Source of the DNA: Rhodospirillales bacterium
Lineage (GTDB): Bacteria; Pseudomonadota; Alphaproteobacteria; Rhodospirillales; Magnetospirillaceae
Assembly (NCBI GenBank): GCA_019455065.1
Contig: JACFNC010000001.1
Span: forward strand, 372,001 to 436,000
DNA: 64,000 bases
Reading direction: 5' to 3'
Below the pieces are notes generated by a model. It was not told the DNA's origin and ran no database searches. It saw nothing but the letters and a program-made list of their open reading frames with translations. This document shows positions 3,377-61,753 of this stretch, in pieces. How positions within the stretch are numbered: position 1 is the first letter of the stretch; every line of letters begins with the position of its first letter. The position numbers and the translations under genes are program-made.

Positions 3377-4116
3377 TCAACCGCGTTGAAGAATCGGCCG
3401 AAGCGGATCGCCCACGGCCATCTCCACACCTCCCAGATAGCCGCCGATCCATCGGTCGAGAAGAACAGGAACTCCGCACGTCCAACCATGTTTTCGAACG
3501 GCACGAATCCCACGTAATCGAGATACCGGCTGTCTTGCGAGTTGTCGCGGTTGTCGCCCATCATAAAGTAGTGGCCGGGCGGCACCACGTAGATGGGGGT
3601 ATTGTCCGTGGGGGCGCTATCGCCGTCGTACTCGATGATGAGGTGGGACCGTCCGTTCGGCAACGTTTCCACGTATTGCCGGGCGCGGCGCGTGTTGCCC
3701 AGCGCGTCGCGCGTCACGTAGTCATCGATCTGCTTGCGCTCCACCGGCGCTCCGTTGATGTGCAGGACACCACCGACGACCTGGATGCGGTCGCCTGGAA
3801 GGCCGATCACCCGCTTGATGTAGTCCGTGCTGTTGTCCGACGGCAATTTGAAGACGGCGACGTCCCCCCGCTCCGGCTCGCTGGGGAATATCCGGCCCTC
3901 GAAAAGGGGAAGGCCGAAGGGCAACGAATACCGGCTATAGCCGTAGGAATATTTCGATACGAAAAGGTAATCCCCGATGAGCAGGCTCGGCACCATCGAT
4001 CCCGATGGAATGTTGAAGGGCTCGAACGCCACGGTGCGGATGACCACCGCGATCAGCACCGCATAGACGATCGTTTTCACCGTCTCCCAGGTGCCGCCGG
4101 TATTTTTTTTCGACAT
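3373..4116 (-). CDS. lepB: Signal peptidase I
   Basis: LepB removes signal peptides from Sec- and Tat-exported proteins on the outer face of the inner membrane. In this 247-residue protein one N-terminal membrane segment (about residues 12-30) is followed by the catalytic serine in PSGSMVPSL (S40) and the general-base lysine in YIKRVIGLPGD (K101). The GDNRDNSQDSR box is near residue 193. The single N-terminal anchor is the short alphaproteobacterial form. It sits between acpS and rnc. The 79 bases before it hold no recognisable gene. Confidence 0.96.
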   Translation of the reverse strand: MSKKNTGGTWETVKTIVYAVLIAVVIRTVAFEPFNIPSGSMVPSLLIGDYLFVSKYSYGYSRYSLPFGLPLFEGRIFPSEPERGDVAVFKLPSDNSTDYIKRVIGLPGDRIQVVGGVLHINGAPVERKQIDDYVTRDALGNTRRARQYVETLPNGRSHLIIEYDGDSAPTDNTPIYVVPPGHYFMMGDNRDNSQDSRYLDYVGFVPFENMVGRAEFLFFSTDGSAAIWEVWRWPWAIRFGRFFNAVE

Positions 4117-4195
4117 CAGTGGGACTGCCCAAAGCTGATCGGGTTGGAAGAAAGGGATTGCAGGTGGGGGATAAGGCCAGTCAAGGCGGCGACTG

Positions 4196-4618
4196 TCAAG
4201 GCGCTTGCAGGTTGTCGGGAATGGCCGAGATGACCACTATCGCCTGGGCTAGGGGGTAATCGTCGGTCATGCTCAAGCTTACCTCAGCACGCATGCCGGG
4301 AGGGGTCAGGGAACGCAAGCGTTCGGCCGCGCCACCGGTCAGCACCAGTGTCGGACGCCCGCCGGGCAGGTTGACCACCGCCATGTCCCGCCAGAAGACC
4401 CCGTCTCGGAAACCCGTTCCCAAAGCCTTGGCGCAGGCCTCCTTCGCCGCGAACCGCTTCGCATAGGTGGCGGCTCGGACGCGCGGGATGGCTCGGGACT
4501 CCGCCTTTGCGCGTTCGATCTGGGTGAATATCCGCGCCTGGAACCGTTCACCGAACCGTGCGAGGCTTCGCTCGATTCGTTTGATGTCCACTAAGTCACT
4601 GCCCACGCCCAGAATCAT
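4196..4618 (-). CDS. acpS: Holo-[acyl-carrier-protein] synthase
   Basis: AcpS transfers the 4'-phosphopantetheine arm from coenzyme A to apo-acyl carrier protein, activating fatty acid synthesis. The 140-residue length is typical. The two Mg-binding residues are visible: D8 in GVGSDLVDI and E60 in [15 protein letters not shown]. The start codon lies one base after the pdxJ stop (stop at 4620-4622, ATG at 4618), so the pair is almost certainly co-translated. The pdxJ-acpS pairing is widespread in proteobacteria. Confidence 0.95.
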
Positions 4619-4619
4619 T

Positions 4620-5375
4620 TCAGGCCGACCGTTCTCCCCCGGCCGCCGCCCGGGCTTGGTCCATGGCCGCGCGCATGCGCTTGATCGCGCTTTCCAGACC
4701 TCCGAAAATCGCTTCGCCGATGAGGAAGTGCCCGATGTTCAGCTCGACGATGGTCGGAACGGCGGCCACTGCGGCCACGGTTTCGTAACTCAGGCCATGA
4801 CCGGCATGGCATTCCAGGCCGATCGCCTCGGCGTGAGCCGCCGCGGCACGAATGCGTCCCAGCTCGGCCAGCCGGCGCGGACCCTGGGCGTCGCAATAGG
4901 CGCCCGTATGCAGTTCGACGACGGGCGCCCCGATGCCAAGCGCCGCATCCAGTTGCCGGGGGTCGGGTTCGACGAAGAGCGAAACCCGAATTCCCGCCTC
5001 ACCCAGGGCCGTAACGATGGGACGCAGGTGCTCCCGGTTGCCGGCCACGTCCAAACCACCCTCGGTGGTCCGCTCCTCACGCCGCTCCGGCACGATGCAG
5101 GTGGCGTGCGGGCGATGGCGCAAGGCGATGTCCCGCATTTCCTGTGTGGCGGCCATTTCCAGATTGAGTGGAAGATCGATCTCGTCCGACAGGCGGCGGA
5201 TATCCTCGTCCGAGATATGCCGGCGATCCTCGCGAAGATGGGCAGTAATGCCATCGGCACCCGACTGCGCCGCCAGTCGCGCCGCCCGAACGGGGTCGGG
5301 ATGCCACCCGCCGCGCGCGTTCCGGATCGTCGCCACATGGTCGATGTTGACCCCCAACCGCAAGTAGCGCTTCAT
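4620..5375 (-). CDS. pdxJ: Pyridoxine 5'-phosphate synthase
   Basis: PdxJ condenses 3-amino-2-oxopropyl phosphate with deoxyxylulose 5-phosphate in the last ring-forming step of vitamin B6 synthesis. The 251-residue TIM barrel starts [20 protein letters not shown], with the N-terminal His13 and Arg region used by the family, and has [12 protein letters not shown] near residue 42. The frame could extend 18 codons further upstream, but ATG 5375 is preferred because GGAGG lies about nine bases before it and family members begin here. It is followed directly by acpS. Confidence 0.95.
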
Positions 5376-5454
5376 CGTCTGGCCTCCAGGCCGCTCCCTC
5401 TTGCGGACACAGAAAAGCAGATTGCGCACGGGAAAACACCTACCCGCCCGCTAC

Positions 5455-7593
5455 TCAATTGCGGGCACGCTCGACCGAATTGATCGCCGGCGTCGCGCGT
5501 AGCGCCGCGATGATGTTGGTCAGGTGTTTGACGTCCCGGACCTCCACGTCGATCTTCATCTCAAAGAACTCGGTCGTGCGATTCGTGATTTTGAGATTGC
5601 GGATGTTGCCCAGGTTCTTGGCGATGACGGTGGACAGATTTCCCAGACTACCCGGCTCATTGATTACGACCAGGCTGATCCGTCCGACATGAACGTCGCG
5701 ATTGTTGGTTTCGCCGCCCCAGGCGAGATCGAGCCAGCGCTCAGGATTCTCCGCGTATTGTTCGAGCATCTCGCAGTCGATCGTATGAATCGTCACGCCC
5801 TTCCCCGTGCTGACGATGCCGACGATGCGGTCGCCGGGCAGCGGATGGCAGCACCCGGCGAAATGCATTGCCATACCCGGTATCAGCCCCTTGATGGTGA
5901 CCGCGTTCTCCTGCGCCTTGTTCTTGGAGCGGGCCTTGAGCGGGACGACGTTGGTCTTGGGTTGGGTCTTGAGTTCCGGATAGACCGCCGCCACGACCTC
6001 GCGGCCCGTATGCACCCCCTCGCCCACCGAAACGATCAGGTCGTCCGCGGTCGGCGCCTTGAAGATCTTGAGTACGCCTTCAATCGCTTTTTCGGTGAAT
6101 TCATAGCCTTCCTGCTTGAAGGCGCGTTGAAGGATCGATCGGCCGAGGCCGAGATACTGGGCGCGCTGCTGAGTGCGGACGAACCGGCGGATGCGGGCGC
6201 GCGCCTTGCCGGTGACGACGAAGCGTTCCCAGGTCGGAGACGGGGTTTGCGCCTTCGAGGTTACGATCTCCACCTGGTCGCCGTTGTTGAGTTGCGTCCG
6301 AAGCGGCATTATGCGGCCGTTCACCTTGGCCCCGACGCAGGTGTCGCCCACTTCGGAATGCACCGCATAGGCGAAATCCACCGGCGTCGCGCCCCGCGGC
6401 AGCGAGATGAGGTCGCCTTTGGGCGTGAAGCAGAACACCTGATCCTGGAACATCTCCAGCTTGGTGTGTTCAAGGAATTCCTCGGGGCCCGAGGCGTGCT
6501 CCAGGATGTCCAGCAACTCACGCAGCCAGCGGTACTGGCGGCCGTCCGTGCTCTTGCCGCCCTGCTTGTACTTCCAGTGCGCGGCCACGCCCAACTCGGC
6601 GATCTCGTGCATGTCCTGGGTGCGGATCTGGACCTCGATGCGGTGCCTTTCGGGGCCGAAAACGCCGGTATGCAGCGAGCGATAGCCGTTTGGTTTGGGG
6701 GTCGAAATATAGTCCTTGAAGCGGCCGGGAACCATGGAGTAGCGGCTGTGAATGACCCCGAGGGCGCGGTAGCAATCCTCCACGCTGTCGACCAAAACAC
6801 GAAAAGCCATGATGTCGGAAAGTTGTTCGAATCCGACGTTCTTGTGCTGCATCTTGTTCCAGATCGAATACGGCGCCTTTTCGCGGCCGGAAACCTGGCA
6901 TTCCACTCCAGCGGACCGCAGGGTGTCTCGCAGCTGTTCAAGAATGCGGCTGATCAGGTCGCCACCCTGTTCCCGCAGAAAATTGAGGCGGGCGAGCAAA
7001 GAGCGCCTGATGTCCGCGTGCAGTTCGGCGAACGCGAGGTCCTCGAGCTCGGATTTCAACTCCTGCATGCCGATGCGCTCGGCCAGTGGCGAGTAAATCT
7101 CCATCGTCTCCAGCGCGATGCGCCGGCGTTTCTCGGCGTCGTCGATGTAGTGCAGCGTCCGCATGTTGTGGAGACGGTCGGCCAGCTTCACGAGGAGCAC
7201 CCGGATGTCCTCGGACATGGCCAATACGAGCTTGCGGAAATTCTCAGCTTGTTTGGTGTGATCCGACTGGAGCTCGATGCGCGTCAGCTTGGTGACACCG
7301 TCCACGAGGCGCCCCACCTCATGGCCGAACAGCTTTTCGACGTCGGCCAGCGTGGCCGGGGTGTCCTCGATCGTATCGTGGAGCAGGGCGGTGATGATCG
7401 AGGCGCTGTCGAGCTTGTAGTTGGTGAGGATTCCCGCAACCTCGAGCGGGTGCGAGAAGTAGGGGTCGCCCGACGCCCGCTTCTGCGAGCCGTGCACCTT
7501 CATGGCAAAAACGTAAGCGCGATTGAGGGCGTCCTCGTCCGCGGTGGGGTCGTAGGAGCGCACTCTTTCGACGAGTTCGAATTGCCTAATCAT
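5455..7593 (-). CDS. rsh: Bifunctional (p)ppGpp synthetase/hydrolase (Rsh family)
   Basis: This is the single RelA/SpoT-type stringent-response enzyme typical of alphaproteobacteria; it makes and degrades the alarmone (p)ppGpp. Domain order in the 712-residue protein: an HD hydrolase domain with HDTIED near residue 72, a RelA_SpoT synthetase domain with YRSLHTGVFG and EVQIRTQDMHEIAE near 320-340, a TGS domain starting near 380 with VFCFTPKGDLISLPRGA, and a C-terminal ACT domain after about 630. Both catalytic halves look intact, so it should be bifunctional. ATG 7593 is preferred over an upstream GTG at 7608 because relatives begin with M-[IM]-RQ-x-ELVERV. It lies downstream of rpoZ. Confidence 0.96.
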   Translation of the reverse strand: MIRQFELVERVRSYDPTADEDALNRAYVFAMKVHGSQKRASGDPYFSHPLEVAGILTNYKLDSASIITALLHDTIEDTPATLADVEKLFGHEVGRLVDGVTKLTRIELQSDHTKQAENFRKLVLAMSEDIRVLLVKLADRLHNMRTLHYIDDAEKRRRIALETMEIYSPLAERIGMQELKSELEDLAFAELHADIRRSLLARLNFLREQGGDLISRILEQLRDTLRSAGVECQVSGREKAPYSIWNKMQHKNVGFEQLSDIMAFRVLVDSVEDCYRALGVIHSRYSMVPGRFKDYISTPKPNGYRSLHTGVFGPERHRIEVQIRTQDMHEIAELGVAAHWKYKQGGKSTDGRQYRWLRELLDILEHASGPEEFLEHTKLEMFQDQVFCFTPKGDLISLPRGATPVDFAYAVHSEVGDTCVGAKVNGRIMPLRTQLNNGDQVEIVTSKAQTPSPTWERFVVTGKARARIRRFVRTQQRAQYLGLGRSILQRAFKQEGYEFTEKAIEGVLKIFKAPTADDLIVSVGEGVHTGREVVAAVYPELKTQPKTNVVPLKARSKNKAQENAVTIKGLIPGMAMHFAGCCHPLPGDRIVGIVSTGKGVTIHTIDCEMLEQYAENPERWLDLAWGGETNNRDVHVGRISLVVINEPGSLGNLSTVIAKNLGNIRNLKITNRTTEFFEMKIDVEVRDVKHLTNIIAALRATPAINSVERARN

Positions 7594-7667
7594 GCCGCAG
7601 CCTCGCACGGCATGGAACCATCAGGCCGGCCACCGCGATTTCGCCATGCCGGCCACATGTGCGCCCG

Positions 7668-8081
7668 TCAGTCTTCGTCGGTCGGCCCCAAATCGCCGCC
7701 GATCAACGAGTCCGAATCCAAATCACCTTCCGTCTCCTGTATCGACAAAAGATCCTCGTTGATCTCTTCATCAGCCAACGCCTCGGCAGGCTCGGCGGCA
7801 AGTTCCTGCTCCAGCGCGAAGGTGTCCATTTCGTCGGCCTCCGGCTCGTCTGCTTCGACGTGCTTTTGCAAACCTTGCACCAAGGCGTTGCGCAGATGGT
7901 CGATACTGACCGTCTCGTCCGCGACTTCGCGAAGTGCCACGACCGGATTCTTGTCGTTGTCGCGGTCGACCGTCAAAGGGGCGCCAGCGGAAATGTCCCG
8001 GGCGCGCTGCCCCGCGACCATGACCAGTTCAAAACGGTTCGGGATCTTGAGAACGCAGTCTTCAACTGTAACGCGCGCCAT
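7668..8081 (-). CDS. rpoZ: DNA-directed RNA polymerase omega subunit
   Basis: Omega assists folding and assembly of the beta' subunit and forms part of a ppGpp site in proteobacterial polymerase. The 137-residue product starts [20 protein letters not shown] and contains RARDISAG and [10 protein letters not shown], all hallmarks of omega. ATG 8081 is chosen over a start ten codons upstream because GGAGA lies about eight bases before it and the family begins MARVTVEDC. The last 60 or so residues form a strongly acidic tail, making it longer than the roughly 90-residue E. coli protein. It precedes rsh, linking omega to alarmone metabolism. Confidence 0.94.
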
Positions 8082-8182
8082 GAACACATCTCCAGATTGC
8101 CGTACCCCCAAGGGGGAAGCTTTTGAAATAGTCTATATATTTGCCGCGCCCCGGGAAAGCAAGGTTCTGGGCTCGGGTTTTC

Positions 8183-8259
8183 TGGCGCGCCCTGCTGGAT
8201 TCGAACCAGCGACCTACCGCTTAGAAGGCGGTTGCTCTATCCTGCTGAGCTAAGGGCGC
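8183..8259 (-). tRNA. tRNA-Arg (anticodon TCT)
   Basis: The reverse complement folds as a full cloverleaf. The acceptor arm pairs GCGCCCT with AGGGCGC, the D-loop region is TAGCTCAGCAGGATAGAGC, and the anticodon stem ACCGC/GCGGT encloses loop CTTCTAA with anticodon TCT (plus-strand bases 8223-8225). The T arm contains GGTTCGAATCC. The CCA tail is encoded at 8183-8185. It begins about nine bases after the stop codon of the NDUFS4-like gene and lies upstream of rpoZ on the same strand. Confidence 0.96.
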
Positions 8260-8268
8260 TAACGTTAC

Positions 8269-8565
8269 TCAGGCTATCCTGTCGTACCGAAACTTGTCGG
8301 CATAGCTCTTGGGCCGAAGAGTGGGCGCCGGAGCGGCCTCGAAGATTTGAAAGTTGTGGCCTTCCCGTTTGGCCCAGGCCACTGCCTCCTCCTTGGTCTT
8401 GAACTTCAGCTTGACCTGTCCCCGCGTATCCGGGGACCCGACCCAGCCCATGAGAGGATCGACCCGCTTGGGCGAGGCGGGTTCGAAATCAGCAATCCAG
8501 ATACCCACATTAGCCCGTCCTGACTGCATGGCGTTCTTCGCCGGGCGATAGATGCGGACCAGCAT
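8269..8565 (-). CDS. NDUFS4-like complex I accessory subunit (ETC complex I conserved region)
   Basis: This resembles the alphaproteobacterial homologue of mitochondrial NDUFS4, a peripheral subunit that stabilises the NADH-dehydrogenase arm of respiratory complex I. The 98-residue product starts MLVRIYRPAKNAMQSGRANV and has the family pattern FEPASPKRVDPLMGW, then a KTKEEAVAWAKREG stretch. The frame stays open to 8655, but the extra N-terminus is a translation of the neighbouring tRNA-Pro, so it is not coding. ATG 8565 has GAGAGG at suitable spacing; ATG 8571 is the alternative. The nuo operon itself is not in this window. Confidence 0.9.
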   Translation of the reverse strand: MLVRIYRPAKNAMQSGRANVGIWIADFEPASPKRVDPLMGWVGSPDTRGQVKLKFKTKEEAVAWAKREGHNFQIFEAAPAPTLRPKSYADKFRYDRIA

Positions 8566-8622
8566 GACCATACCCTCTCTGAGTAGCGGCGTTTTCCGCC
8601 AGCCGAAATCACCTTTTTGTCC

Positions 8623-8699
8623 TGGTCGGGGCGACTGGATTCGAACCAGCGACATCCTGCTCCCAAAGCAGGCACTCTACCAGGCTGAGCTACGCCCCG
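8623..8699 (-). tRNA. tRNA-Pro (anticodon TGG)
   Basis: The reverse complement gives a complete cloverleaf. The acceptor arm pairs CGGGGCG with CGCCCCG, the D arm is TAGCTCAGCCTGGTAGAG, and the anticodon stem CCTGC/GCAGG encloses loop TTTGGGA, anticodon TGG (plus-strand 8663-8665). The T arm has GGTTCGAATCC. CCA is encoded at 8623-8625. It lies upstream of the NDUFS4-like gene on the same strand. The first pair C1-G72 followed by discriminator A73 fits bacterial tRNA-Pro. Confidence 0.96.
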
Positions 8700-9672: not shown

Positions 9673-9775
9673 GATCGTATCACTGTGCCCGGCGTTCCCC
9701 GCGCACGCAAGCGCCGGAATGCCAGACAATTCGCCTTGCCTTGGGGCGCCGGCGAGCGCATAGTCCGCCCTCATC

Positions 9776-9866
9776 GGCGGGGGGAGCCGCGCAGGCGGCT
9801 GAGAGGTCTTTTCGGAAGACGACCCCTAGAACCTGATCCGGTTAACACCGGCGTAGGGACGCAAGG
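9776..9866 (+). promoter_or_regulatory. TPP (thiamine pyrophosphate) riboswitch
   Basis: The conserved THI-element core is present in order: GGGGAGCC near 9781, CTGAGA at 9799-9804 followed by a hairpin (GTCTTTTCGGAAGAC), GACCC at 9821-9825, GAACCTGATC at 9829-9838, a CCGGTTAACACCGG hairpin, and GCGTAGGGA at 9851-9859. The aptamer ends only about ten bases before the ATG at 9870. The likely ribosome-binding AAGG (9863-9866) directly follows the closing helix. This suggests that ligand binding hides the ribosome-binding site; a transcriptional effect cannot be excluded. Confidence 0.95.
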
Positions 9867-9869
9867 CAT

Positions 9870-10613
9870 ATGTCGTCTATCCCCTCTCCTTCGGTTCACG
9901 TCCACGCCGCGCGCTTGGCTTTTGCCGGCGTCCCGCTTTTCGATGACCTTGACTTTCAGCTTCCAGGCGGATCGTGGACATGCCTGCTCGGACCGAGCGG
10001 CGTGGGCAAGTCGACCCTATTGCGAATACTCGCCGGCCTCGAGTCCGCAGGCGACCAGGGTCAGGTGGTATGCGGCGACGGGATTCCGCTGAGCGGACGC
10101 GCGGCCTACATGGCGCAAAAGGATCTCCTGCTGCCGTGGCTCTCCGTGATCGAGAACGCGGTCGTTGGATTTCGTCTTCGGGGCCAGCGCGCCCCCAAGC
10201 ATCAGGCGCGCGAACTACTCGCCGCGGTGGGGTTGGCGGACCGTTGCTACGCTCGTCCTGACGACCTTTCGGGCGGGATGCGCCAGCGCGTCGCTCTCGT
10301 GCGCACCCTTGTCGAGGACCGGCCGGTTATCCTCATGGACGAACCCTTCTCCGCCCTGGATGCGATTACCCGATACCGTCTGCAATCTTTGGCCTCGCGA
10401 CTGCTCGCTGGTCGGACGGTCCTCCTCGTCACCCACGATCCGCTGGAGGCCCTGAGGCTCGGTCATCGCATTCATGTCCTGGCCGGACGGCCGGCGCGCC
10501 TCGGTGCGTGCATCGAGCCCCCGGGGAAACCTCCACGCGACCCGTCTGATCCCGCCGTGCTTGCCGCCCAGGCCGACCTGCTACGCCGCCTCGCCGCGGC
10601 CGCCGAGGCCTAG
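9870..10613 (+). CDS. thiZ: ABC transporter ATP-binding protein, thiamine-precursor uptake (ThiZ-like)
   Basis: This is the ATPase of a NitT/TauT-type importer, probably for the thiamine pyrimidine precursor. In 247 residues it shows Walker A GPSGVGKST (41-49), a Q-loop AYMAQKDLLLPW, the signature LSGGMRQRVAL near 132, Walker B VILMDEPFSALDA near 153 and an H-loop VTHDP. Substrate is inferred from the TPP riboswitch immediately upstream and the NMT1-type binding protein two genes downstream, not from the ATPase itself. Its stop is three bases before the permease start. Confidence 0.9.
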   Translation: MSSIPSPSVHVHAARLAFAGVPLFDDLDFQLPGGSWTCLLGPSGVGKSTLLRILAGLESAGDQGQVVCGDGIPLSGRAAYMAQKDLLLPWLSVIENAVVGFRLRGQRAPKHQARELLAAVGLADRCYARPDDLSGGMRQRVALVRTLVEDRPVILMDEPFSALDAITRYRLQSLASRLLAGRTVLLVTHDPLEALRLGHRIHVLAGRPARLGACIEPPGKPPRDPSDPAVLAAQADLLRRLAAAAEA

Positions 10614-23794: not shown

Positions 23795-24349
23795 TCACTC
23801 CTTCTCTACTGTTTTCGTTGGCGGTATCCACTTCCGTACCGCCACCGGCCGGCCGGTGTGGGATTGCAGCATGCGCGACCGCAGAACCTGTTCGACCGGC
23901 GGCGCCGCCCGCTCGGGGGGGTGCGGCGCGCGACCGTAGAACGCCATCATGGACTGAAGCGTGATTTCCGCCCGATCGCCTCGGCGCAAAGCCTCGACGT
24001 ATGGACTGTGGAGCTTGAGTTGCCGGGTGAGATAGTCGGCCGAGTGGGAACCGAAGCGGCGCCAGATGCCGTCAAGGAAAAGGACGACCTTTTCGGGAAG
24101 CGGGCGCGCCTCGATGTATGGGCGGCCGGTGGCCAGGGCGTGATACACCGACGGCTCGGTTGGGCCCATCTCGGCGGCCACGAACACGGCTGGCATGAGT
24201 TTGCGCCCGGGATTGGCCACGGCGTAATAGGCCTGCGCAAGGTACAGCAGGCGTTGCAGCTTTTGCGGCTGCAGGTATTCCTGTTCGCCCAGGGCCCGAT
24301 CGAGAAACCAGAGGGCCACGTCGAAGTTGGACTCGATTTCCGCCGGCAT
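23795..24349 (-). CDS. Panacea (DUF4065)-like protein, function unknown
   Basis: A 184-residue soluble protein. The N-terminal half (FDVALWFLDRALGE, then LQPQKLQRLLYLAQAYYAVAN and FVAAEMGPTEPSVY) follows the pattern of the Panacea/SocA-like domain: a helix, KLQKLLY-x-AQ, then a GP-x2-P-x-VY box. That domain is found in antitoxin and phage-linked proteins, but no toxin gene is adjacent here. The C-terminal 50 residues are proline- and arginine-rich. ATG 24349 has GGAAGGAA before it. It converges on the ChaN-like gene with one base between the stops and diverges from the CoxS-like gene. The domain call is by pattern only. Confidence 0.7.
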   Translation of the reverse strand: MPAEIESNFDVALWFLDRALGEQEYLQPQKLQRLLYLAQAYYAVANPGRKLMPAVFVAAEMGPTEPSVYHALATGRPYIEARPLPEKVVLFLDGIWRRFGSHSADYLTRQLKLHSPYVEALRRGDRAEITLQSMMAFYGRAPHPPERAAPPVEQVLRSRMLQSHTGRPVAVRKWIPPTKTVEKE

Positions 24350-24477
24350 TTTCCTTCCTCTCCTGGAATGAAGCATAGCCAACCCTCCCTCGCGGGCAAA
24401 GGGGACGAACGGCTTTGTTCTTGACCGGGCGAGGTTGCCGGCTCACCTTTCTTGGCAAAGATCGGCCTGCAAGACCT

Positions 24478-24963
24478 ATGTCGCACACCCTATCCATGGT
24501 CGTGAACGGTTCGGCGGTTATCACCGAGGTCGACGACCACACCCTCCTCGTGGATTTCCTGCGCGATCGCCTCCGCCTGACTGGTGCGCACGTGGGGTGC
24601 GATACCAGCCAATGCGGTGCCTGCGTCGTCCAGGTAGATGGCCGTACGGTGAAATCCTGCACCATGCTGGCCCTCCAGGCCGACGGGGCGGTGGTTACGA
24701 CGATCGAGGGGCTGGCACCCGGCGACGCTCTCCATCCCATGCAGCAGGCCTTCCGCGACCTCCACGGCCTGCAATGCGGCTTCTGCACCCCAGGCATGGT
24801 GATGAGTGCGATCGAATTCGCCGAAACCCGTCCCGATGCCGACGAGGCCACCATAAGACAGGGGCTGGAGGGAAATCTCTGCCGGTGCACCGGCTACCAT
24901 AATATCGTGCGGGCCGTGATGGCCGGAATGCGCGCCATGAAGACTCGCCCAAACGCGGGATGA
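24478..24963 (+). CDS. [2Fe-2S] small subunit of a molybdenum hydroxylase (CoxS/XdhA-like)
   Basis: A 161-residue electron-transfer subunit with two [2Fe-2S] sites. The plant-type cluster has Cys41, Cys46, Cys49 and Cys61 (GCDTSQCGACVVQVDG region); the second has Cys100, Cys103, Cys135 and Cys137 (CGFCTPG and LCRCTGYHNIV). Such subunits pass electrons from a Mo-cofactor large subunit to FAD or a quinone. The matching large (CoxL) and FAD (CoxM) genes are absent nearby, although Mo-enzyme maturation genes follow 3 kb downstream. The stop overlaps the ydbH-like start by four bases. Confidence 0.93.
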   Translation: MSHTLSMVVNGSAVITEVDDHTLLVDFLRDRLRLTGAHVGCDTSQCGACVVQVDGRTVKSCTMLALQADGAVVTTIEGLAPGDALHPMQQAFRDLHGLQCGFCTPGMVMSAIEFAETRPDADEATIRQGLEGNLCRCTGYHNIVRAVMAGMRAMKTRPNAG

Positions 24964-27464
24964 ACGGAATGCGCCGGCGCTGGCCTCTTTTGCTGGCGCT
25001 GTGCGTAATTCTTCTCGTTCTGGCTTCGCCCTACCTCCTGGTTCAGGCGTTCACAATGGCGGCGGTCCGCATGCTCCCAGGCGGCGGGCGGATCGAGGCG
25101 GTGGATTTTTCCCTGGATCGGATCGTCCTGCGCAACGTCAGTACCGGGAACGGCACCCTCTCGCTCGAGCAAGCGGTCATCGAGTTTCGCCTGGCCGAGT
25201 TACTCCGTGGCCGGGTTCAACAGGTTCATTTGAATGGCCTGCGCATTGACCTGCCTATTGCGGGCAATGGCGGCGCTTCCCCGCCGACGCCCGCAATCCC
25301 GGGCCTCCCCCCGCTGCTGACCGTTGCCGAAGCAAGCCTGGCGGACGCGGCGCTCCACGTCGCCGTCGGCGAAGACGTCATCGCCCTTCCCTTCCACGGC
25401 TCGATCGCACTCAGCGAGGGCCGCGCGCGGGGGCGTCTCGTTTTCGAAGGACCTGTGTTCAACGCCGATACGCTGGTGGAAATCGGCCCGGGATTGGCTC
25501 GGCTGCGGTCGGAGCGGGGTGCCAAGGTGGTTCTGGATACCCTCCCGCCTATCGTCGCGCGAATGGTTCCGACGCCCTTTCACAATCCGCTAAAGAACCC
25601 CCTATCGCTCGATCTGGACGGGATGGCCGGTGAGCCGTTGGAGTTATTCCTCCGGCAAAGCAGCGGGGCTCTGCTCCTTGGCGGCCGCTTCGTGGCCGTG
25701 CTCTCCTCGGGCTCTGGCCTCCGCGCCTCCCTTTCCGCGGACGGCGAGGTCACGCTTTCCGGAGGCGATGCCCCGCCCCTACTGAATAAGCCGCTGAGCC
25801 TCGAGTTTGCCGGTCTACGAATGCCGGTGGCCGTCGTTGACGGCCGCCTGGAGATCGGGCAGTTCGCGACGTCCGACGAAATGTGGGAAGCCGAGGCCAA
25901 TTTGCGACTGGCGGCGCGCGACCTTCAAGCCGCCCCGATCGCCGCCTCGGCGATCCTTCTTGATTGCAATGGATTGCTTCGCCTGAACGGCAACCATCTC
26001 GCCTTCGTGCCGCAGGCGCCTGGCCGCCTGCGGGCGGAGGAACTGGTCGGGCCGCATTTCGCTTTGAATACGCTCGATGCCGGTATTCGCGCCTCCGCCG
26101 AGCCACTCTTCGCGATCGCCGAGATGGATGGCGAAGCTGCGCTCCGAATGAATGCCGTTCTCGGCGACCTGAATGCGGTTGCGGAGCTCCGCTTGGACAG
26201 TGGACCGCGTCAAATGGCCATCGGCGCGAAGCAACTCTCCTTCGCCGGGCCGCTGGATTTGAATGAGAAGCGGAAGGCGTTGACGTTCGAGGTGCTTGGA
26301 GGATCTGTGACGCTTACGGACGTGCCGGGGCGCCTGCTCGACATGCATGCCCGCATGCGAATTTCCGATGGCGTCGAGGCCAAACTCGTGTCTGCCCGAC
26401 TTCACCTGCCGGGCATCGTGCCGTTGTCGTTGGATGCCTATGCGCGCCCGACGGGTGAAGCCTCGTGGCGGCTGGGGGCGAACCTGCGCGACGCGAAGCG
26501 GCGACTGGAAATCGAGGCTTCGGGCCGGCACGTTGGGAAGACGGGCACAGGGACGCTAAACCTGACTGTCAAACCGATCGCATTTTCCGAGGACGGTCTG
26601 CAGCCGGCCGACTTGATCCCGGCCCTGGCGGACACCTTGACCCGCGTCGCCGGGCGACTCGCCGCCACGGGAACCCTTCGCTGGTCGGAACATGGTCTTT
26701 CGCCGGAAATAGACCTGCTCATCCAGGATGGGGCCGCTGCACTTGGCGGGCTTTCGATGTCGCGTATCAACACGGTCATCCGGTTGGACGGCTTGGCGCC
26801 ACTCTCCACCCCGCCCGATCAGGTCGCGGCGGTGGGCTTGGTCGAGGCGGGCCTTCCCCTGACCGACGGCAGGATGACGTTTCAGATATCGGGCAGCCGC
26901 CTAACCGTTGCGGCGGCCGACATCAGCCTCGCCGGGGGGCGCATGTCACTCGCCAATGCCGTTGTCGATCACGCAGCGAAGGAACAGCGGCTCGAATTCC
27001 GGGTCGAGGGCGTGAATCTCGCCGAAATCGTTCGGCAGATCGATCTCGAAGGGCTGGAGGCGTCGGGGGCCCTCAGTGGCAGGATACCGGCCGTGGTGTC
27101 CGAGGGACGCGTCTTCATAAATGACGCACGGCTCGCAGCAACCGCGCCCGGCCTGTTGCGGTATCGGCCGGCCACCCGGCCAGCCGCACTCGAGGGTGGA
27201 GGCCAGCCGGTCGAGATGATGCTCAAGGCGCTGGACGATTTCCGCTACCGCACGCTCGTTTTGACGCTTGATGGAGAAGCCGGCGGGGATGTCGAGGCCC
27301 TGCTACACATCCAAGGCAGCAATCCGGCCCTTTACGACGGCTATCCGCTCGAATTCAACCTGACCCTTCAAGGAAAACTCGATACGGTGCTGCAAGAGAC
27401 GCTGGCGGGTTATCAAATTCCGGATAAAATCCGCCAAAGGATGCTGAATTTCGGGGTGCCTTAG
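24960..27464 (+). CDS. ydbH: YdbH-family envelope protein (AsmA-like)
   Basis: An 834-residue protein with one N-terminal membrane anchor (about residues 8-30) and a long periplasmic region rich in alternating beta strands, typical of AsmA/TamB-like lipid-transfer proteins. The C-terminal part carries the YdbH domain, with LEASGALSGRIPAVVSEGRVFI near residue 705 and a YRTLVLTLDGEAGGDVEALLHIQG stretch. In E. coli, YdbH acts redundantly with TamB and YhdP in moving phospholipids to the outer membrane and works with YnbE, whose homologue follows here. The ATG overlaps the CoxS-like stop (ATGA). Confidence 0.88.
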   Translation: MNGMRRRWPLLLALCVILLVLASPYLLVQAFTMAAVRMLPGGGRIEAVDFSLDRIVLRNVSTGNGTLSLEQAVIEFRLAELLRGRVQQVHLNGLRIDLPIAGNGGASPPTPAIPGLPPLLTVAEASLADAALHVAVGEDVIALPFHGSIALSEGRARGRLVFEGPVFNADTLVEIGPGLARLRSERGAKVVLDTLPPIVARMVPTPFHNPLKNPLSLDLDGMAGEPLELFLRQSSGALLLGGRFVAVLSSGSGLRASLSADGEVTLSGGDAPPLLNKPLSLEFAGLRMPVAVVDGRLEIGQFATSDEMWEAEANLRLAARDLQAAPIAASAILLDCNGLLRLNGNHLAFVPQAPGRLRAEELVGPHFALNTLDAGIRASAEPLFAIAEMDGEAALRMNAVLGDLNAVAELRLDSGPRQMAIGAKQLSFAGPLDLNEKRKALTFEVLGGSVTLTDVPGRLLDMHARMRISDGVEAKLVSARLHLPGIVPLSLDAYARPTGEASWRLGANLRDAKRRLEIEASGRHVGKTGTGTLNLTVKPIAFSEDGLQPADLIPALADTLTRVAGRLAATGTLRWSEHGLSPEIDLLIQDGAAALGGLSMSRINTVIRLDGLAPLSTPPDQVAAVGLVEAGLPLTDGRMTFQISGSRLTVAAADISLAGGRMSLANAVVDHAAKEQRLEFRVEGVNLAEIVRQIDLEGLEASGALSGRIPAVVSEGRVFINDARLAATAPGLLRYRPATRPAALEGGGQPVEMMLKALDDFRYRTLVLTLDGEAGGDVEALLHIQGSNPALYDGYPLEFNLTLQGKLDTVLQETLAGYQIPDKIRQRMLNFGVP

Positions 27465-27469
27465 GGAAG

Positions 27470-27676
27470 ATGAGGTCGGTGGCGAAACGAACGGTTCGGG
27501 CATACGTCATGGGCGTGGCACTCCTGATGCCCGCGGCATGTCAGCCAACCGTGAAGATTGAACCTCCCGACAAACCGATCGTGATCAATCTCAACATCAA
27601 GATCGAGCAGGAAGTCCGTATAAAGGTTGAGAAAGACGTTGAGGACTTGCTGAAGCAAAATCCGGAGTTGTTCTGA
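27470..27676 (+). CDS. ynbE: YnbE-family lipoprotein
   Basis: A 68-residue lipoprotein precursor with lipobox PAAC at residues 21-24 and a mature part PTVKIEPPDKPIVINLNIKI followed by the KVEKDVEDLLKQNPELF tail. E. coli YnbE has the same layout (P-I-x-I-N-x-N-V-K-I-E and a DVEELL tail). It is thought to cap YdbH at the outer membrane. It starts five bases after the ydbH stop; the start codon sits very close to GGGAAG, so a slightly later start is possible. Confidence 0.88.
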   Translation: MRSVAKRTVRAYVMGVALLMPAACQPTVKIEPPDKPIVINLNIKIEQEVRIKVEKDVEDLLKQNPELF

Positions 27677-27677
27677 A

Positions 27678-28037
27678 GTGACGAAGGAAAATTCACGACC
27701 GCCGATGCTTCGCTGGCTCCTGCTCGGTTTGGCGCTGGTGGTGTTGCCGGTGACCGGCGAGGCCGTCGCCCAGGGAGGCCTGGAGGCAGCCAAGTCCGCC
27801 GGGCTCGTCGGGGAGCGGCCGGACGGAATGCTCGGCCTCGTCTCGTCCGCGTCTTCCGAGGTAAAAAGGCTGGTCGACGACATCAACGCGCGCAGGCTCG
27901 CCCAGTATCAGCAAATCGCTGCGCGAAACGGGACCAGCGTCGAGGCGGTGCAGGCGATTGCCGGAAGGAAACTCGTTTCCGAGGCGCCCCCCGGTACGTA
28001 TGTGATGGATGGTTCGGGACGATGGCGCAAGAAATGA
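27678..28037 (+). CDS. ydbL: YdbL-family (DUF1318) periplasmic protein
   Basis: A 119-residue exported protein. The signal region is MLRWLLLGLALVVLPVTGEAVAQ from residue 10, and the mature part has AKSAGLVGERPDGMLG, VDDINARRLAQYQQIAARNG and PPGTYVMDGSGRWRKK, all typical of DUF1318. It completes the ydbH-ynbE-ydbL set. GTG 27678 is used (GGAG about ten bases before it); ATG 27705 would give 110 residues, closer to the 108 of E. coli YdbL. The stop overlaps the xdhC-like start by four bases. Confidence 0.88.
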   Translation: MTKENSRPPMLRWLLLGLALVVLPVTGEAVAQGGLEAAKSAGLVGERPDGMLGLVSSASSEVKRLVDDINARRLAQYQQIAARNGTSVEAVQAIAGRKLVSEAPPGTYVMDGSGRWRKK

Positions 28038-28372
28038 CTGGTCCGACGACCACTCTGCCCGACAATCAGATCCTGGACCGCGCGCTGGCGTGGCGCGACG
28101 AGGGGCGCGGAGTTGCTCTGGCCACCGTCGTCACCACCTGGGGCTCGGCTCCGCGGCCGGTGGGCAGCCATCTCGCAATCGACGAAACAGGGGCTTTTCT
28201 CGGGTCTGTCTCCGGCGGATGCGTCGAAGGCGCGGTCATCGAGGAGGCCCTGGAAGTCATCCGGGATGGCAAACCGCGCCTGCTGTCGTTTGGAGTCAGC
28301 AATGAGCAGGCCTGGGAGGTCGGGTTGGCCTGCGGAGGGCAGATCGATATCTACGTCGAAGCCGTTGAATAG
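28034..28372 (+). CDS. XdhC/CoxI-family protein, N-terminal domain (stand-alone)
   Basis: A 112-residue protein equal to the first domain of XdhC, the factor that receives and inserts sulfurated molybdenum cofactor into xanthine dehydrogenase-type enzymes. Family segments are GVALATVVTTWGSAPRPVGSH and GSVSGGCVEGAVIEEA, with the conserved cysteine in SGGCVEG. ATG 28034 overlaps the ydbL stop (ATGA); another in-frame ATG at 28022 exists. The second XdhC domain is encoded separately by the next gene, which begins immediately after the stop. Confidence 0.92.
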   Translation: MTGPTTTLPDNQILDRALAWRDEGRGVALATVVTTWGSAPRPVGSHLAIDETGAFLGSVSGGCVEGAVIEEALEVIRDGKPRLLSFGVSNEQAWEVGLACGGQIDIYVEAVE

Positions 28373-29071
28373 ATGAAACCTGACATTCGAGAGCGGTTGA
28401 AGGCGGCCCGCGCGGCGCGGAATACGGTCGCGCTGGTCACCGACCTGGAAAGCGGCGCGCAGGCCGTGATCGACGAGGCGACACGGTCCGGAACCCTGAC
28501 TCTGGAAGGGCCCGCACTCGAAGCCGCCCTCGCCGCCCTGCGTGCCGAGAGCACCGGCCCGTTACCCGTGACGGGACGGCGACTTTTCGTGCGGGTGTAC
28601 GGCCTGCCCTGGCGGATGGTCGTGATCGGAGCCGTGCACGTCACCCAGGCCCTTGCCCCCATGGCCGCCATGACCGGATACGGTGTCACCATCGTCGATC
28701 CCCGCCAGGCTTTCGCGACGGCGGAACGCTTTCCCGATCAACGCCTCGTGCATCTCTGGCCGGACGAGTTCCTGGCCGAGGAGCCACCGGACGCGCATAC
28801 CGCAATCGTGACCCTGACCCATGATCCGAAGATCGACGATCCGGCTCTCGAGGTGGCGCTGCGTTCGCCCGCCTTCTACGTGGGGGCGCTTGGCAGCCGG
28901 AAGACGCATTCGCTTCGCGTCGCGCGGCTGCGCGAAAGGGGCTACACAGAGGCCGAGATCGCCCGCATTCATGCTCCCATCGGCCTCGATCTCGGCGGCC
29001 GGTCTCCGCCGGAAATCGCCGTGGCGGTGCTGGCGCAGGTGGTGAAGGCCCGCTACATGCCTGAAACATGA
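28373..29071 (+). CDS. XdhC-family protein, C-terminal Rossmann domain (stand-alone)
   Basis: A 232-residue protein. The N-terminal 70 residues form a variable region; the rest is the XdhC Rossmann domain, with VVIGAVHVTQALAPMAAMTGY near residue 82, VTLTHDPKIDDPAL and YVGALGSRKTHSLR, ending in the conserved IGLDLGGRSPPEIAVAVLAQV. The start abuts the preceding stop with no spacer, and the stop overlaps the next ATG by four bases. Splitting XdhC into two adjacent genes is common in alphaproteobacterial Mo-hydroxylase operons. Confidence 0.92.
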   Translation: MKPDIRERLKAARAARNTVALVTDLESGAQAVIDEATRSGTLTLEGPALEAALAALRAESTGPLPVTGRRLFVRVYGLPWRMVVIGAVHVTQALAPMAAMTGYGVTIVDPRQAFATAERFPDQRLVHLWPDEFLAEEPPDAHTAIVTLTHDPKIDDPALEVALRSPAFYVGALGSRKTHSLRVARLRERGYTEAEIARIHAPIGLDLGGRSPPEIAVAVLAQVVKARYMPET

Positions 29072-30702
29072 TCTTTGACCGCTTTCCCCTCGATCAGGCG
29101 GTCGGCGTCATCCTGGCGCATTCGCAGCGACTGCGCGACCGCACCATCAAGAAGGGCAGGACGCTCGATGAGAGCGATATCGCGGCCCTGGCCGCTGCCG
29201 GAATATCCGAGATCGCCGGCGCGCGGCTCGAAGCCGGCGACATGGGCGAGGACGATGCCGCCGGTCGCGTCGCCGGCCTTGTTGCCGGCCCCGGCACCGT
29301 GTGCACTGCGGCCTTTACCGGAAGGTGCAACGTGATCGCTATGCATCGCGGACTGGCCGATGTCGACCAAGCCTTGATCGACCGTCTCAATCGCATCGAC
29401 GAGGCGATCACCATCGCGACCGTTCCGCCCGGCGAGGTCGTCGAAGAGCGTCAGATCCTGGCCACCGTCAAGGTCATACCGTTCGCGATCCCCGGTTCGC
29501 TTCTCAGCCATTATGGCTCCCTGGCGGCCGCCGCCACCGCGCTGCGGGTCCGGAGGTTCCGAAGCCGGCGCACAGGGCTGATTCTCACGACGCTGCCCGG
29601 AATGAAACCGAGCGTTCTCGACCAGACCTCTTCGGTGGTGCGTGACCGCCTCGACGCCCTCGCAGGTGAACTCGTGTCGGAGCGACGTTGCGAACATGAC
29701 GAGGCAGCCGTTGCTGCCGCCGTCGAGGCCACCCTGCGCGAGGGGTGCGAGATGGTCCTGCTGTCGGGCGCCTCGGTGACGGTCGATCGGCGGGATGTCA
29801 TCCCGGCGGGGATCGTCCGCGCCGGAGGAACGATCGAGCATTTCGGCATGCCCGTCGATCCAGGCAACCTCTTGCTCTTGGCCCGCCACGGAGAGGTTCC
29901 GGTCGTCGGCCTGCCGGGATGTGGTCGGTCGCCGAAGCTGAATGGGCTCGACTGGGTCCTGCGCCGGTTGGCCGCCGACCAGCCGGTTCGGCCTGCCGAC
30001 ATCATGGGAATGGGCGTCGGCGGTTTGTTGAAGGACATTGCGGCGCCGGCCCGCCCCTTGCCCCGCGAGCGCGCCGTCAAACGCGCTCCGACCCCGACTC
30101 CGCGAGGCGCCGCGAAGGTCGCCCTCGTCGTCTTGGCCGCAGGCCAATCGCGACGGATGGGGGCCAACAAGCTGCTTGCCGACCTTCGGGGAAGACCGCT
30201 CGTATCGTGGGCTGTTGATGCCGCGCTTGCCTCACGCGCGTCACCAGTCATCGTCGTCACCGGCCACCAGGCCGAGGCGGTGCGCTCCGCGCTTGCCGAC
30301 CGGGCCGTTCAATTCGTCCACAATCAGGACTACGCCGAGGGGATGGCGGGTTCCTTGCGCAGAGGTATCGAAGCCCTACCGGCGGACGTCGACGCCGTCG
30401 TCGTTCTGCTGGGCGACATGCCCCGCATCACCGGTGCGCACATCGACAGATTGATCGATGCCTATTCTCCCGCCGGGGGGCGCATCGTCTGCGTCCCGGC
30501 GAGCGAGGGGCGGCGAGGCAACCCGGTCTTGATCGGCCGCCCCCTCTTCGGAGGGCTGAAGGCGCTACGAGGCGACGTCGGCGCCCGGCATGTCATCGCC
30601 GGCAACCCCGATGTGGTGCATGAGGTGGAATGGGACGATGATTCGATTTTTGCGGACGTCGATACCGCGCCCGAGTTGGAAAGGGCGAGAATGACTCAAT
30701 AG
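29068..30702 (+). CDS. Fusion of molybdopterin-binding domain and MobA/MocA-like nucleotidyltransferase
   Basis: A 544-residue two-domain protein. Residues 1-335 resemble a MoeA/MogA-type molybdopterin-binding protein, with KKGRTLDESDIAALAAAGI, LLSGASVTVDRRDVIPAGIV and VVGLPGCGRSPKLNGLDWVL. After a proline/arginine linker, residues 350-540 form an NTP-transferase domain of the MobA/MocA family, with VVLAAGQSRRMGANKLL near 352 and LLGDMPRI near 450. MocA-type enzymes make the cytosine dinucleotide form of Mo cofactor used by CoxL/XdhB enzymes, so this is presumably the cofactor-finishing enzyme of the operon. The start overlaps the XdhC-like gene by four bases. Confidence 0.9.
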   Translation: MIFDRFPLDQAVGVILAHSQRLRDRTIKKGRTLDESDIAALAAAGISEIAGARLEAGDMGEDDAAGRVAGLVAGPGTVCTAAFTGRCNVIAMHRGLADVDQALIDRLNRIDEAITIATVPPGEVVEERQILATVKVIPFAIPGSLLSHYGSLAAAATALRVRRFRSRRTGLILTTLPGMKPSVLDQTSSVVRDRLDALAGELVSERRCEHDEAAVAAAVEATLREGCEMVLLSGASVTVDRRDVIPAGIVRAGGTIEHFGMPVDPGNLLLLARHGEVPVVGLPGCGRSPKLNGLDWVLRRLAADQPVRPADIMGMGVGGLLKDIAAPARPLPRERAVKRAPTPTPRGAAKVALVVLAAGQSRRMGANKLLADLRGRPLVSWAVDAALASRASPVIVVTGHQAEAVRSALADRAVQFVHNQDYAEGMAGSLRRGIEALPADVDAVVVLLGDMPRITGAHIDRLIDAYSPAGGRIVCVPASEGRRGNPVLIGRPLFGGLKALRGDVGARHVIAGNPDVVHEVEWDDDSIFADVDTAPELERARMTQ

Positions 30703-60963: not shown

Positions 60964-61753
60964 CCATGCACCCCGTATTGCGTTTGGCGAGTTGGGCGCA
61001 CAGCGCCCGCGCGGCGAGTTCATCCATCGCTCCGGCGCGCAGGCGATAGAACGTACCGCGAGCACCGAGGTCGACCTTCAGAATGTCACTGCTCAGATTG
61101 CCCAACAGATCGGGATTGTCCTTCTTCAGGCGCACCCATGCCTTCTCGGCGGCGTCCAGGGTTCCCATCGCGGCCAGTTGAAGCATGAAGTCGCCCCGGG
61201 GCGTCGTGGCCTTCGCCGTCTCCGCCGCTGCGGGAGGCAAGGTCTCGACCGAGGGCCGGGGTGCCTCGGGTTTGGCCGGTGAAGGTGCGCGCAGCGATGG
61301 CGCCACATCAGGCACGATGATCTCGGGCGACACGGCGCCCGGGTTGGGCTCGCTGGGCGGCAAGGCCGCCGTCACCGGCGGCGGCTTGGGCTGCTCCGGC
61401 GGTGGCAACAGCCGTTCCACCTTCGGCTCGTGATCCCCTCGCCCCAGGTTCTCGTACACCAGTTTGTCCTGGTTCGGAACGATCAGCCCGCCGGGTTCTT
61501 CGGGGCGAGCCTTGATCGGCCTGCTGTCGGCGCGAATCAACGGAAGTTCGGAATGCGGGCTCGGCGAAAGCTCGGATGAGGCGGTGAAGATGTACCACCC
61601 GGCGACGGCGGCGACCACGGCCGCGCCGCCGAGCAGCAGGGTCGGCACCAGCCGCAGGCGCGCGCCGAAGCGTCTCCTGCGGTTGCCGGGCAGTTCGCCA
61701 AAGGGCTCTGGAATGATGTCGAGTATCTCCCGATCGACCTCCTGCGGACTCAT
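60950..61753 (-). CDS. SPOR-domain protein
   Basis: A 267-residue inner-membrane protein with one helix (about residues 34-57, LVPTLLLGGAAVVAAVAGWYI) and a long proline-rich periplasmic linker. The C-terminal SPOR domain spans about 190-267 (FMLQLAAMGTLDAAEKAWVRLK, ending TGCMVVRK). SPOR domains bind denuded septal glycans, so a division-site role is likely. It lies two bases after argS and before nagZ, a conserved alphaproteobacterial grouping. Confidence 0.92.
   Translation of the reverse strand: MSPQEVDREILDIIPEPFGELPGNRRRRFGARLRLVPTLLLGGAAVVAAVAGWYIFTASSELSPSPHSELPLIRADSRPIKARPEEPGGLIVPNQDKLVYENLGRGDHEPKVERLLPPPEQPKPPPVTAALPPSEPNPGAVSPEIIVPDVAPSLRAPSPAKPEAPRPSVETLPPAAAETAKATTPRGDFMLQLAAMGTLDAAEKAWVRLKKDNPDLLGNLSSDILKVDLGARGTFYRLRAGAMDELAARALCAQLAKRNTGCMVVRK

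Follow-up and report, generated by a model that had tools for sequence, protein, structure and literature searches.

Three-subunit molybdenum hydroxylases are usually sought as operons. Among enzymes like the molybdenum-containing CO dehydrogenase (Mo-CODH), the motif AYRGAGR in the large subunit CoxL, together with the gene order coxSLM, is described as the mark of Form II (PMC7645674; PMC13203968), and the activity of Form II on CO is described as unsettled (PMC7645674; PMC13203968; PMC13240472). A survey of Form I filters its genes by the coxMSL structure (PMC13203968), and another survey reads partial operons as incomplete genomes (PMC13240472). Sets of coxS and coxM lacking coxL have already been noticed, in photic-zone SAR202 (PMC11245477) and among sponge symbionts, from which many coxL per genome are known and which include Poribacteria that have coxM and coxS and no CO-type coxL (PMC8941161); the absence is read there as loss or as another enzyme. 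In Acuticoccus, 31 Form II CODH genes and four coxL are reported (PMC5747140). As for maturation, MoeA- and MobA/MocA-type enzymes finish the cofactor, and XdhC keeps it bound for sulfuration before inserting it into the large subunit; in Rhodobacter capsulatus, XdhC takes part in sulfuration and insertion of the molybdenum cofactor with NifS4 (PMC2997495).

How does the present locus compare with these systems? The window is a stretch of 64,000 nucleotides from a Rhodospirillales bacterium, and the genes concerned are collected in Table 1. The earlier note had listed coxS, ydbH-ynbE-ydbL, a split xdhC and a MoeA/MobA fusion with neither coxM nor coxL, and Pfam agrees with this gene set and its positions, while tblastn with the five CoxM and five CoxL of the same genome (E up to 1e-4) found no coxM and no coxL in the window. 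YdbH, YnbE and YdbL families occur together at one locus, all three Pfam matches being over the cut-off, in the same order as in the ydbH-ynbE-ydbL locus for outer-membrane lipid homeostasis in E. coli (PMC8593681). Unlike in E. coli, the set is preceded by coxS and followed by xdhC and the MoeA/MobA-like fusion, which stays under the cut-offs of PF00994 (23.9 bits, cut-off 26.6) and TIGR03310 (156.9 bits, cut-off 186.45). Past the Panacea-like gene lie a ChaN-like gene and TRAP transporter genes. Gene names of neighbors used below were covered by family search for Inositol_P (cysQ-like), GntR-aminotransferase (MocR-type), NifS-type, NifU-type, DctP and DctM, and the names srpbcc/CoxG, chaN neighbors and SDR are backed by such a search in some cases.

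Table 1. Genes at the coxS-ydbH-xdhC locus (positions counted from the first letter of the window).
Feature	Position	Strand	Evidence and remarks
Panacea-like (SocA-like) gene, divergent from coxS	23795..24382	-	PF13274 25.4 bits, just under 25.7 cut-off
coxS-like [2Fe-2S] subunit, 161 aa, orphan small subunit	24478..24963	+	PF01799 3.8e-32, PF00111
ydbH-like intermembrane phospholipid transport protein, 834 aa	24960..27464	+	PF11739 1.6e-64; ATGA overlap with coxS
ynbE-like lipoprotein, 68 aa	27470..27676	+	PF13617 1.2e-17
ydbL-like, DUF1318, 119 aa	27678..28037	+	PF07027 2.7e-29; start 27705 also possible by codon scoring
xdhC N-terminal half	28022..28372	+	PF02625 3.3e-28; start 28022 or 28034
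xdhC C-terminal Rossmann half	28373..29071	+	PF13478 2.6e-44
MoeA-like/MobA(MocA)-like fusion, 544 aa, probable molybdenum cofactor nucleotide transferase	29068..30702	+	PF12804 5.7e-40

The small subunit of the window has eight Cys (41, 46, 49, 61, 100, 103, 135 and 137), which are invariant in 14 aligned orthologs. Overlaps of 4 bases had been claimed on both sides of the ydbH set; that of coxS and ydbH is so (24960-24963), and that of ydbL and xdhC is 4 bases only if xdhC begins at ATG 28034 and otherwise, from ATG 28022, 16 bases. Judging from spacing only, the genes from coxS to the fusion would belong to one transcript; a scan of the locus for promoter and terminator consensus gave no clear excess over shuffles. 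The XdhC_CoxI and XdhC_C domains are both over the cut-off, yet they are in two frames, and neither half reached the NCBIfam full-length models. Because two adjacent xdhC frames are also present in several of 80 named loci collected with the S profile (e.g., L165, L166, L168, L195, L224 and L227), the two-piece XdhC is not odd in itself. Like the R. capsulatus system, the XdhC domains here adjoin a cofactor nucleotide transferase, and some relatives add genes for a class-V aminotransferase (NifS-type) and a NifU-like protein; unlike that system, XdhC is in two frames and its client enzyme does not adjoin.

Where, then, is the client? The genome (3.96 Mb in 40 contigs, 96% complete, 2.5% contamination) has five CoxL (PF02738), five CoxS and five CoxM (PF00941), and a search with Fer2_2 (PF01799) for fused or extra CoxS gave the same five and no more. 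By gene calling there are four complete cox operons, two on contig C9 and two on C16, each with its own S. The leftovers lie at three places: CoxS on C8 (the window), a lone CoxM on C26 from 68885, and a lone CoxL on C16 from 252164, which has neither S nor M adjoining and is flanked by a GntR-aminotransferase regulator gene and an inositol-monophosphatase-family (cysQ-like) gene. The search that the earlier note had proposed, namely for coxL or coxM without an adjacent coxS in the rest of the genome, has therefore turned up one orphan of each, of matching type, and its suggestion that CoxS serves a molybdenum enzyme elsewhere is most likely right. Its other suggestion, loss of coxL and coxM, was rejected, both having orphans in this genome. 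SAR202 and Poribacteria are earlier cases of coxS and coxM with no CO-type coxL (PMC11245477; PMC8941161), but the present genome has a matching lone coxL elsewhere.

Do the three orphans belong together? CoxM of C26 is 51-64% identical to coxM of the same type in relatives, and the M of this type in relatives show 25-45% to the other CoxM of the genome (best three listed); for the orphan L, same-family matches are 59-68% identical among the matches listed. When the S of a relative is closest to the window S, its adjoining L, if any, is closest to the lone L with few exceptions among the loci examined. The motifs of the trio are kept, with the eight Cys in S, FAD motifs in M, and AYRGAGR plus a conserved Glu near the C-terminus in L, a residue which we take to be catalytic; all Pfam domains of the orphan M and L are over the cut-off, and the trio looks intact as far as sequence can tell. 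The best solved-structure matches of S, M and L are chains of CO dehydrogenase. By their sequences, all three orphans are Form II CO-dehydrogenase-type subunits; they are not filed as a Form II operon because S, L and M sit on three contigs (C8, C16 and C26), and the coxSLM gene order, a trait of Form II operons, is absent for the trio.

We consider it probable that the window S, the C26 M and the C16 L make up one Form II-type molybdenum hydroxylase assembled in trans, and that the ydbH set is a group of passengers. CoxS would be the iron-sulfur subunit of this CO-dehydrogenase-like enzyme, with S, M and L coming from three loci to join in trans, while the two-piece XdhC and the MoeA/MobA-like fusion would ready the molybdenum cofactor and load it into CoxL. 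In known enzymes of this kind, electrons pass from the molybdenum site through two [2Fe-2S] clusters to FAD; here they would go from the molybdenum site of CoxL via the two clusters of CoxS to the FAD of CoxM. The ydbH-ynbE-ydbL genes, old neighbors of xdhC-moeA/mobA, would be carried along in the operon with no part needed in the enzyme. Trans assembly and this electron path, like the single transcript and the direction of rearrangement discussed below, are what we infer from the genes. A point against it is that the lone L might in principle work with any of the four other S-M pairs of the genome. In the reverse sense, one of the four complete operons might draw on the window CoxS as a spare or a substitute small subunit, their CoxS being homologous to it (46-48% identical); but each of these operons has its own S, the window S is closer to the S adjoining C26-type M in relatives (58-69% identical, among the matches listed), and at most of the 80 named loci retrieved with the S profile, L and M are of the orphan types, which makes the spare subunit very improbable.

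Relatives tell more about the trio. In a set of 61 genomes (this one and 60 others) searched with YdbH, CoxS, the C-half of XdhC, the lone CoxL and the lone CoxM, S, M and L of orphan type co-occur in 21 and neither M nor L of orphan type is found in 38, among the matches listed and as raw genome counts that ignore kinship. For counting, L under about 43% identity was taken as another type (e.g., G055 C27, G036 C54, G033, G034 and G015 C1), and two genomes were left out of the linkage count, G054, where S is complete but M and L are fragmented, and G056, with a fragment of L only. Within the family of the window genome, the trio is present in 12 of 37 genomes with one L of the type each, and in all 12 the L is more than 10 kb from S and M (among the matches listed). 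If G045 of another family is added, 13 genomes have one of each, and coxL is unlinked in 13 of 13; S and M are adjacent in 12 (11 of the family and G045), the window genome being the sole exception. In G018, which is a single contig, coxL is 0.75 Mb from the S-M pair. A cysQ-like gene lies within 116 bases of the lone L in the window genome and in 11 of the 12 relatives examined, G001 being the exception. Thus, coxL had not been displaced by ydbH here, since in each of the 11 other same-family trio genomes it is likewise separate from coxS-coxM; going by these gene positions, it seems that coxM alone left in the window lineage and that coxL is apart family-wide.

These genomes bear on two further explanations. 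One is that CoxS is a leftover of a broken enzyme, still made but idle after coxM and coxL left, as one might think from the partner genes not adjoining and from an unrelated gene being joined to it. Against this, its frame is whole and the eight cluster Cys are kept, the genome contains intact relatives of both its partners, and S, M and L co-occur across genomes even with L unlinked; we regard such a leftover as unlikely. The other is an artefact of binning, in which C8, C16 and C26 would come from different organisms and the orphans would never meet in one cell. GC content of the window stretch is 0.64 versus 0.68 and 0.69 near the orphan L and M, which might speak for it, but other parts of C8 reach 0.66 and so overlap stretches of C16 (0.66-0.69) and C26 (0.67-0.71), contamination of this nearly complete bin is low, no contig end is closer than 24 kb to any of the three genes, and 12 more genomes with one of each also have L away from S-M, one of them the single contig mentioned above. 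An artefact is therefore extremely unlikely, and assembly in trans from three loci of one genome stays our preferred reading.

Two gene arrangements recur in the relatives. The lone coxL is directly followed by a cysQ-like gene at L027 (8165-11205), at L308-L319 except L312, and at L334. Clusters of coxS-coxM-mobA or coxM-mobA are followed by genes for a class-V aminotransferase (cysteine-desulfurase-like) and a NifU-like protein at L098, L099, L104, L106, L107 and L121, the two families having been checked on the L098 pair; it is as if cofactor sulfuration were built into coxM-mobA clusters.

Separation of coxL is also seen in named genomes. In at least 11 of the 80 named loci, the gap between coxS and coxM is 13-189 bases, leaving no room for coxL between them, and no coxL was found in the rest of the fetched stretch, two of these loci being on contigs about 3 kb long. 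Both L and M served as queries in four of these genomes. Rhodospirillaceae MAG RH-23may17-603 has a single M and a single L of the type, which are on separate contigs with a cysQ-like gene after L, Kangsaoukella pontilimi likewise has one of each on separate contigs, Xanthobacteraceae 501b has one of each about 22 kb apart, and Bradyrhizobium sp. dw_411 has five L at 46% identity or more and two M at 54% or more, one M being beside an L.

Trees of the subunits place the lone L among Form II-like proteins. The L tree was made from 108 rows by a quick method, and biochemically studied reference proteins are not among the rows. The L of the 13 one-of-each genomes, 12 of which carry AYRGAGR (as CoxL of C16 does) and one SYRGAGR, form one clade (SH-aLRT 92; 99 for the same-family part) within a clade of 39 rows (100), in which S or M is nearby in nine and was found near none of the other 30, some of those on short contigs. 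A neighboring clade of 42 rows (97) consists mostly of L from S-L-M loci, and the lone L falls together with L of such loci in a fork of 82 rows (99). The Form I motif AYRCSFR occurs in six rows, which make up a separate clade (100) at a distance from the lone L. In comparison with Form II (BMS-type) coxSLM operons, therefore, the orphan S, M and L are alike in being homologous, in the AYRGAGR of L and in the place of L beside L mostly from S-L-M loci; they are unlike in that the genes are at three places and L belongs to a clade largely devoid of nearby S or M. In the M tree, the orphan type is one clade of 72 rows (100/100), in which the 13 dispersed M do not all group together: ten form a clade, that of the window genome and that of G015 are in an unresolved fork, and that of G045 is with G055 and G048 (among the rows listed). 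For eight members of the family, the branching of the M tree is compatible with that of the L tree; the S tree has poor resolution (both among the rows listed).

Then, how did coxS come to be next to ydbH? The ydbH gene is patchy, present in 13 of the 61 genomes and, in a sample of 199 genomes from the order, in 61, which makes 62 genomes in all. We annotated 53 of these 62 loci, leaving out G070, G088, G100, G120, G132, G146, G152, G164 and G216; some contigs in the set are short. Near ydbH, ynbE was found in 44 of the 53, ydbL in 42 and moeA/mobA in nine, and xdhC lies downstream in 11, which belong to four families (f1, f4, f9 and f31). The coxS gene is near ydbH in one locus, that of the window, coxM in none and coxL in one (G055), and the other ten ydbH-xdhC loci have no coxS within 5 kb. 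A stable grouping of coxS-ydbH-ynbE-ydbL-xdhC was thus rejected: the earlier note had allowed that relatives might always carry it with complete cox operons elsewhere, and complete operons do exist elsewhere, but none of the 52 other loci has coxS. Intrusion of the ydbH set into a cox operon, as "interrupted" in the note implied, was likewise rejected, given the ydbH-xdhC order without coxS in four families.

A Panacea-like gene lies within 3.5 kb of ydbH in 24 of the 53 loci, in many families, and it also adjoins coxS-coxM in several relatives; we know of no function linking a Panacea/SocA-like gene and ydbH. Genome G015, of the same family, has chaN, Panacea-like, ydbH, ynbE, ydbL, split xdhC, moeA/mobA, NifU-like and ACT genes, nearly the order of the window; its coxS is absent from this locus and is paired with coxM on a different contig. 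In G002 and G055, the genes are Panacea-like, coxS, coxM, xdhC and moeA/mobA, without ydbH there. Therefore, the same flanks take either the S-M pair or the ydbH set, and the window has S plus the ydbH set. The ydbH-to-xdhC order is, from these comparisons, old and independent of the coxS link, being the older of the two links because it occurs in 11 of 53 loci of four families, ten of them without coxS. Since this order is old and coxS is at the window locus only, no cox operon appears to have been interrupted, and the locus is, on the gene orders compared, a composite. As to its history, a locus filled in relatives by coxS-coxM or by ydbH-ynbE-ydbL would have come to hold coxS and ydbH-ynbE-ydbL in the window lineage, with coxM elsewhere, and two routes both fit the layout: loss of coxM at an old S-M junction, or insertion of coxS upstream of ydbH. 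The coxS-ydbH junction comes from one draft genome only, and no second species of the genus turned up. At L118 in G055 (3876-8680), a lone Form II-type coxL stands 1.3 kb upstream of ydbH-ynbE-ydbL, in an arrangement other than that of the window.

Might the lipid-transport genes instead be tied functionally to the molybdenum enzyme, for example by bringing the enzyme or its substrate to the envelope? The recurrence of xdhC after ydbH-ynbE-ydbL in four families and the coxL upstream of ydbH in G055 could be taken that way. Against it, xdhC is not near in 42 of the 53 ydbH loci and coxS not near in 52, some contigs being short, and no ydbH match was found in ten of the 12 same-family trio genomes. 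Moreover, the ydbH-xdhC link can be explained by shared descent, because ten of the 11 loci share the Panacea-like flank. We give little credence to a functional tie, and continue to regard the ydbH set as passengers of an enzyme assembled in trans.

If L is so regularly apart, does each L need an S-M pair of its own? Among the matches listed, the 21 genomes hold 46 L of the type, and 38 of them lack any S or M of that type in the surrounding 10 kb, at least eight of these 38 beginning less than 2 kb from a contig start, so that some may only look lone. G055 has a single matching S-M pair and 13 L of the type, all of them lacking such an S or M within 10 kb (among the matches listed; for three of the 13, C1, C24 and C11:775, lone status is read from the match lists). 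With one S and one M each, G058 and G051 have four L, G038 has three, and G047, G053 and G043 have two, both L of G043 being linked, and in G048 three L go with two S and two M of the type (again among the matches listed). Lone-looking L in such numbers, together with 13 L per S-M pair in G055, suggest interchangeable catalytic subunits on a shared electron-transfer module. We tentatively propose, with slightly more doubt than confidence, that a clade of Form II-type CoxL has moved out of its operons and joins, in trans, an S-M pair encoded elsewhere, one pair serving many interchangeable L; the window would be the extreme of this dispersed layout, in which even S and M are parted. It is to be noted that G055 has further matches of other types, at least nine CoxS and at least five CoxM, some of them next to an L of their own, and these subunits could act as partners too. 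The active-site loop, AYRGAGR in most CoxL of Form II type, varies in most copies of its lone L, with PYRGAGR, PYRSAGR, PFRGAGR and others among ten aligned rows (loci L118 and L322-L326), and the conserved Glu is kept in nine of these ten, the tenth row ending at the end of the stretch. A varied loop and a kept Glu in these sequences hint at different substrates. In the open-licence literature searched, we found no proposal of one S-M pair shared by several L. If it is true, one S-M pair and many L would be a set of combinatorial molybdenum hydroxylases, a cheap way to multiply oxidation reactions. And if whole families keep L apart, such enzymes may go unnoticed or be recorded as incomplete, and a lone coxL blamed on assembly gaps may be real.

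Two other features of the window lie outside this locus. At 61342-61438, ARAGORN calls a tRNA-Gly of 97 bases with the anticodon acc, which is not in Rfam at the cut-off and is probably not a real tRNA. At 9770-9876, there is a TPP riboswitch (Rfam RF00059, 75 bits).
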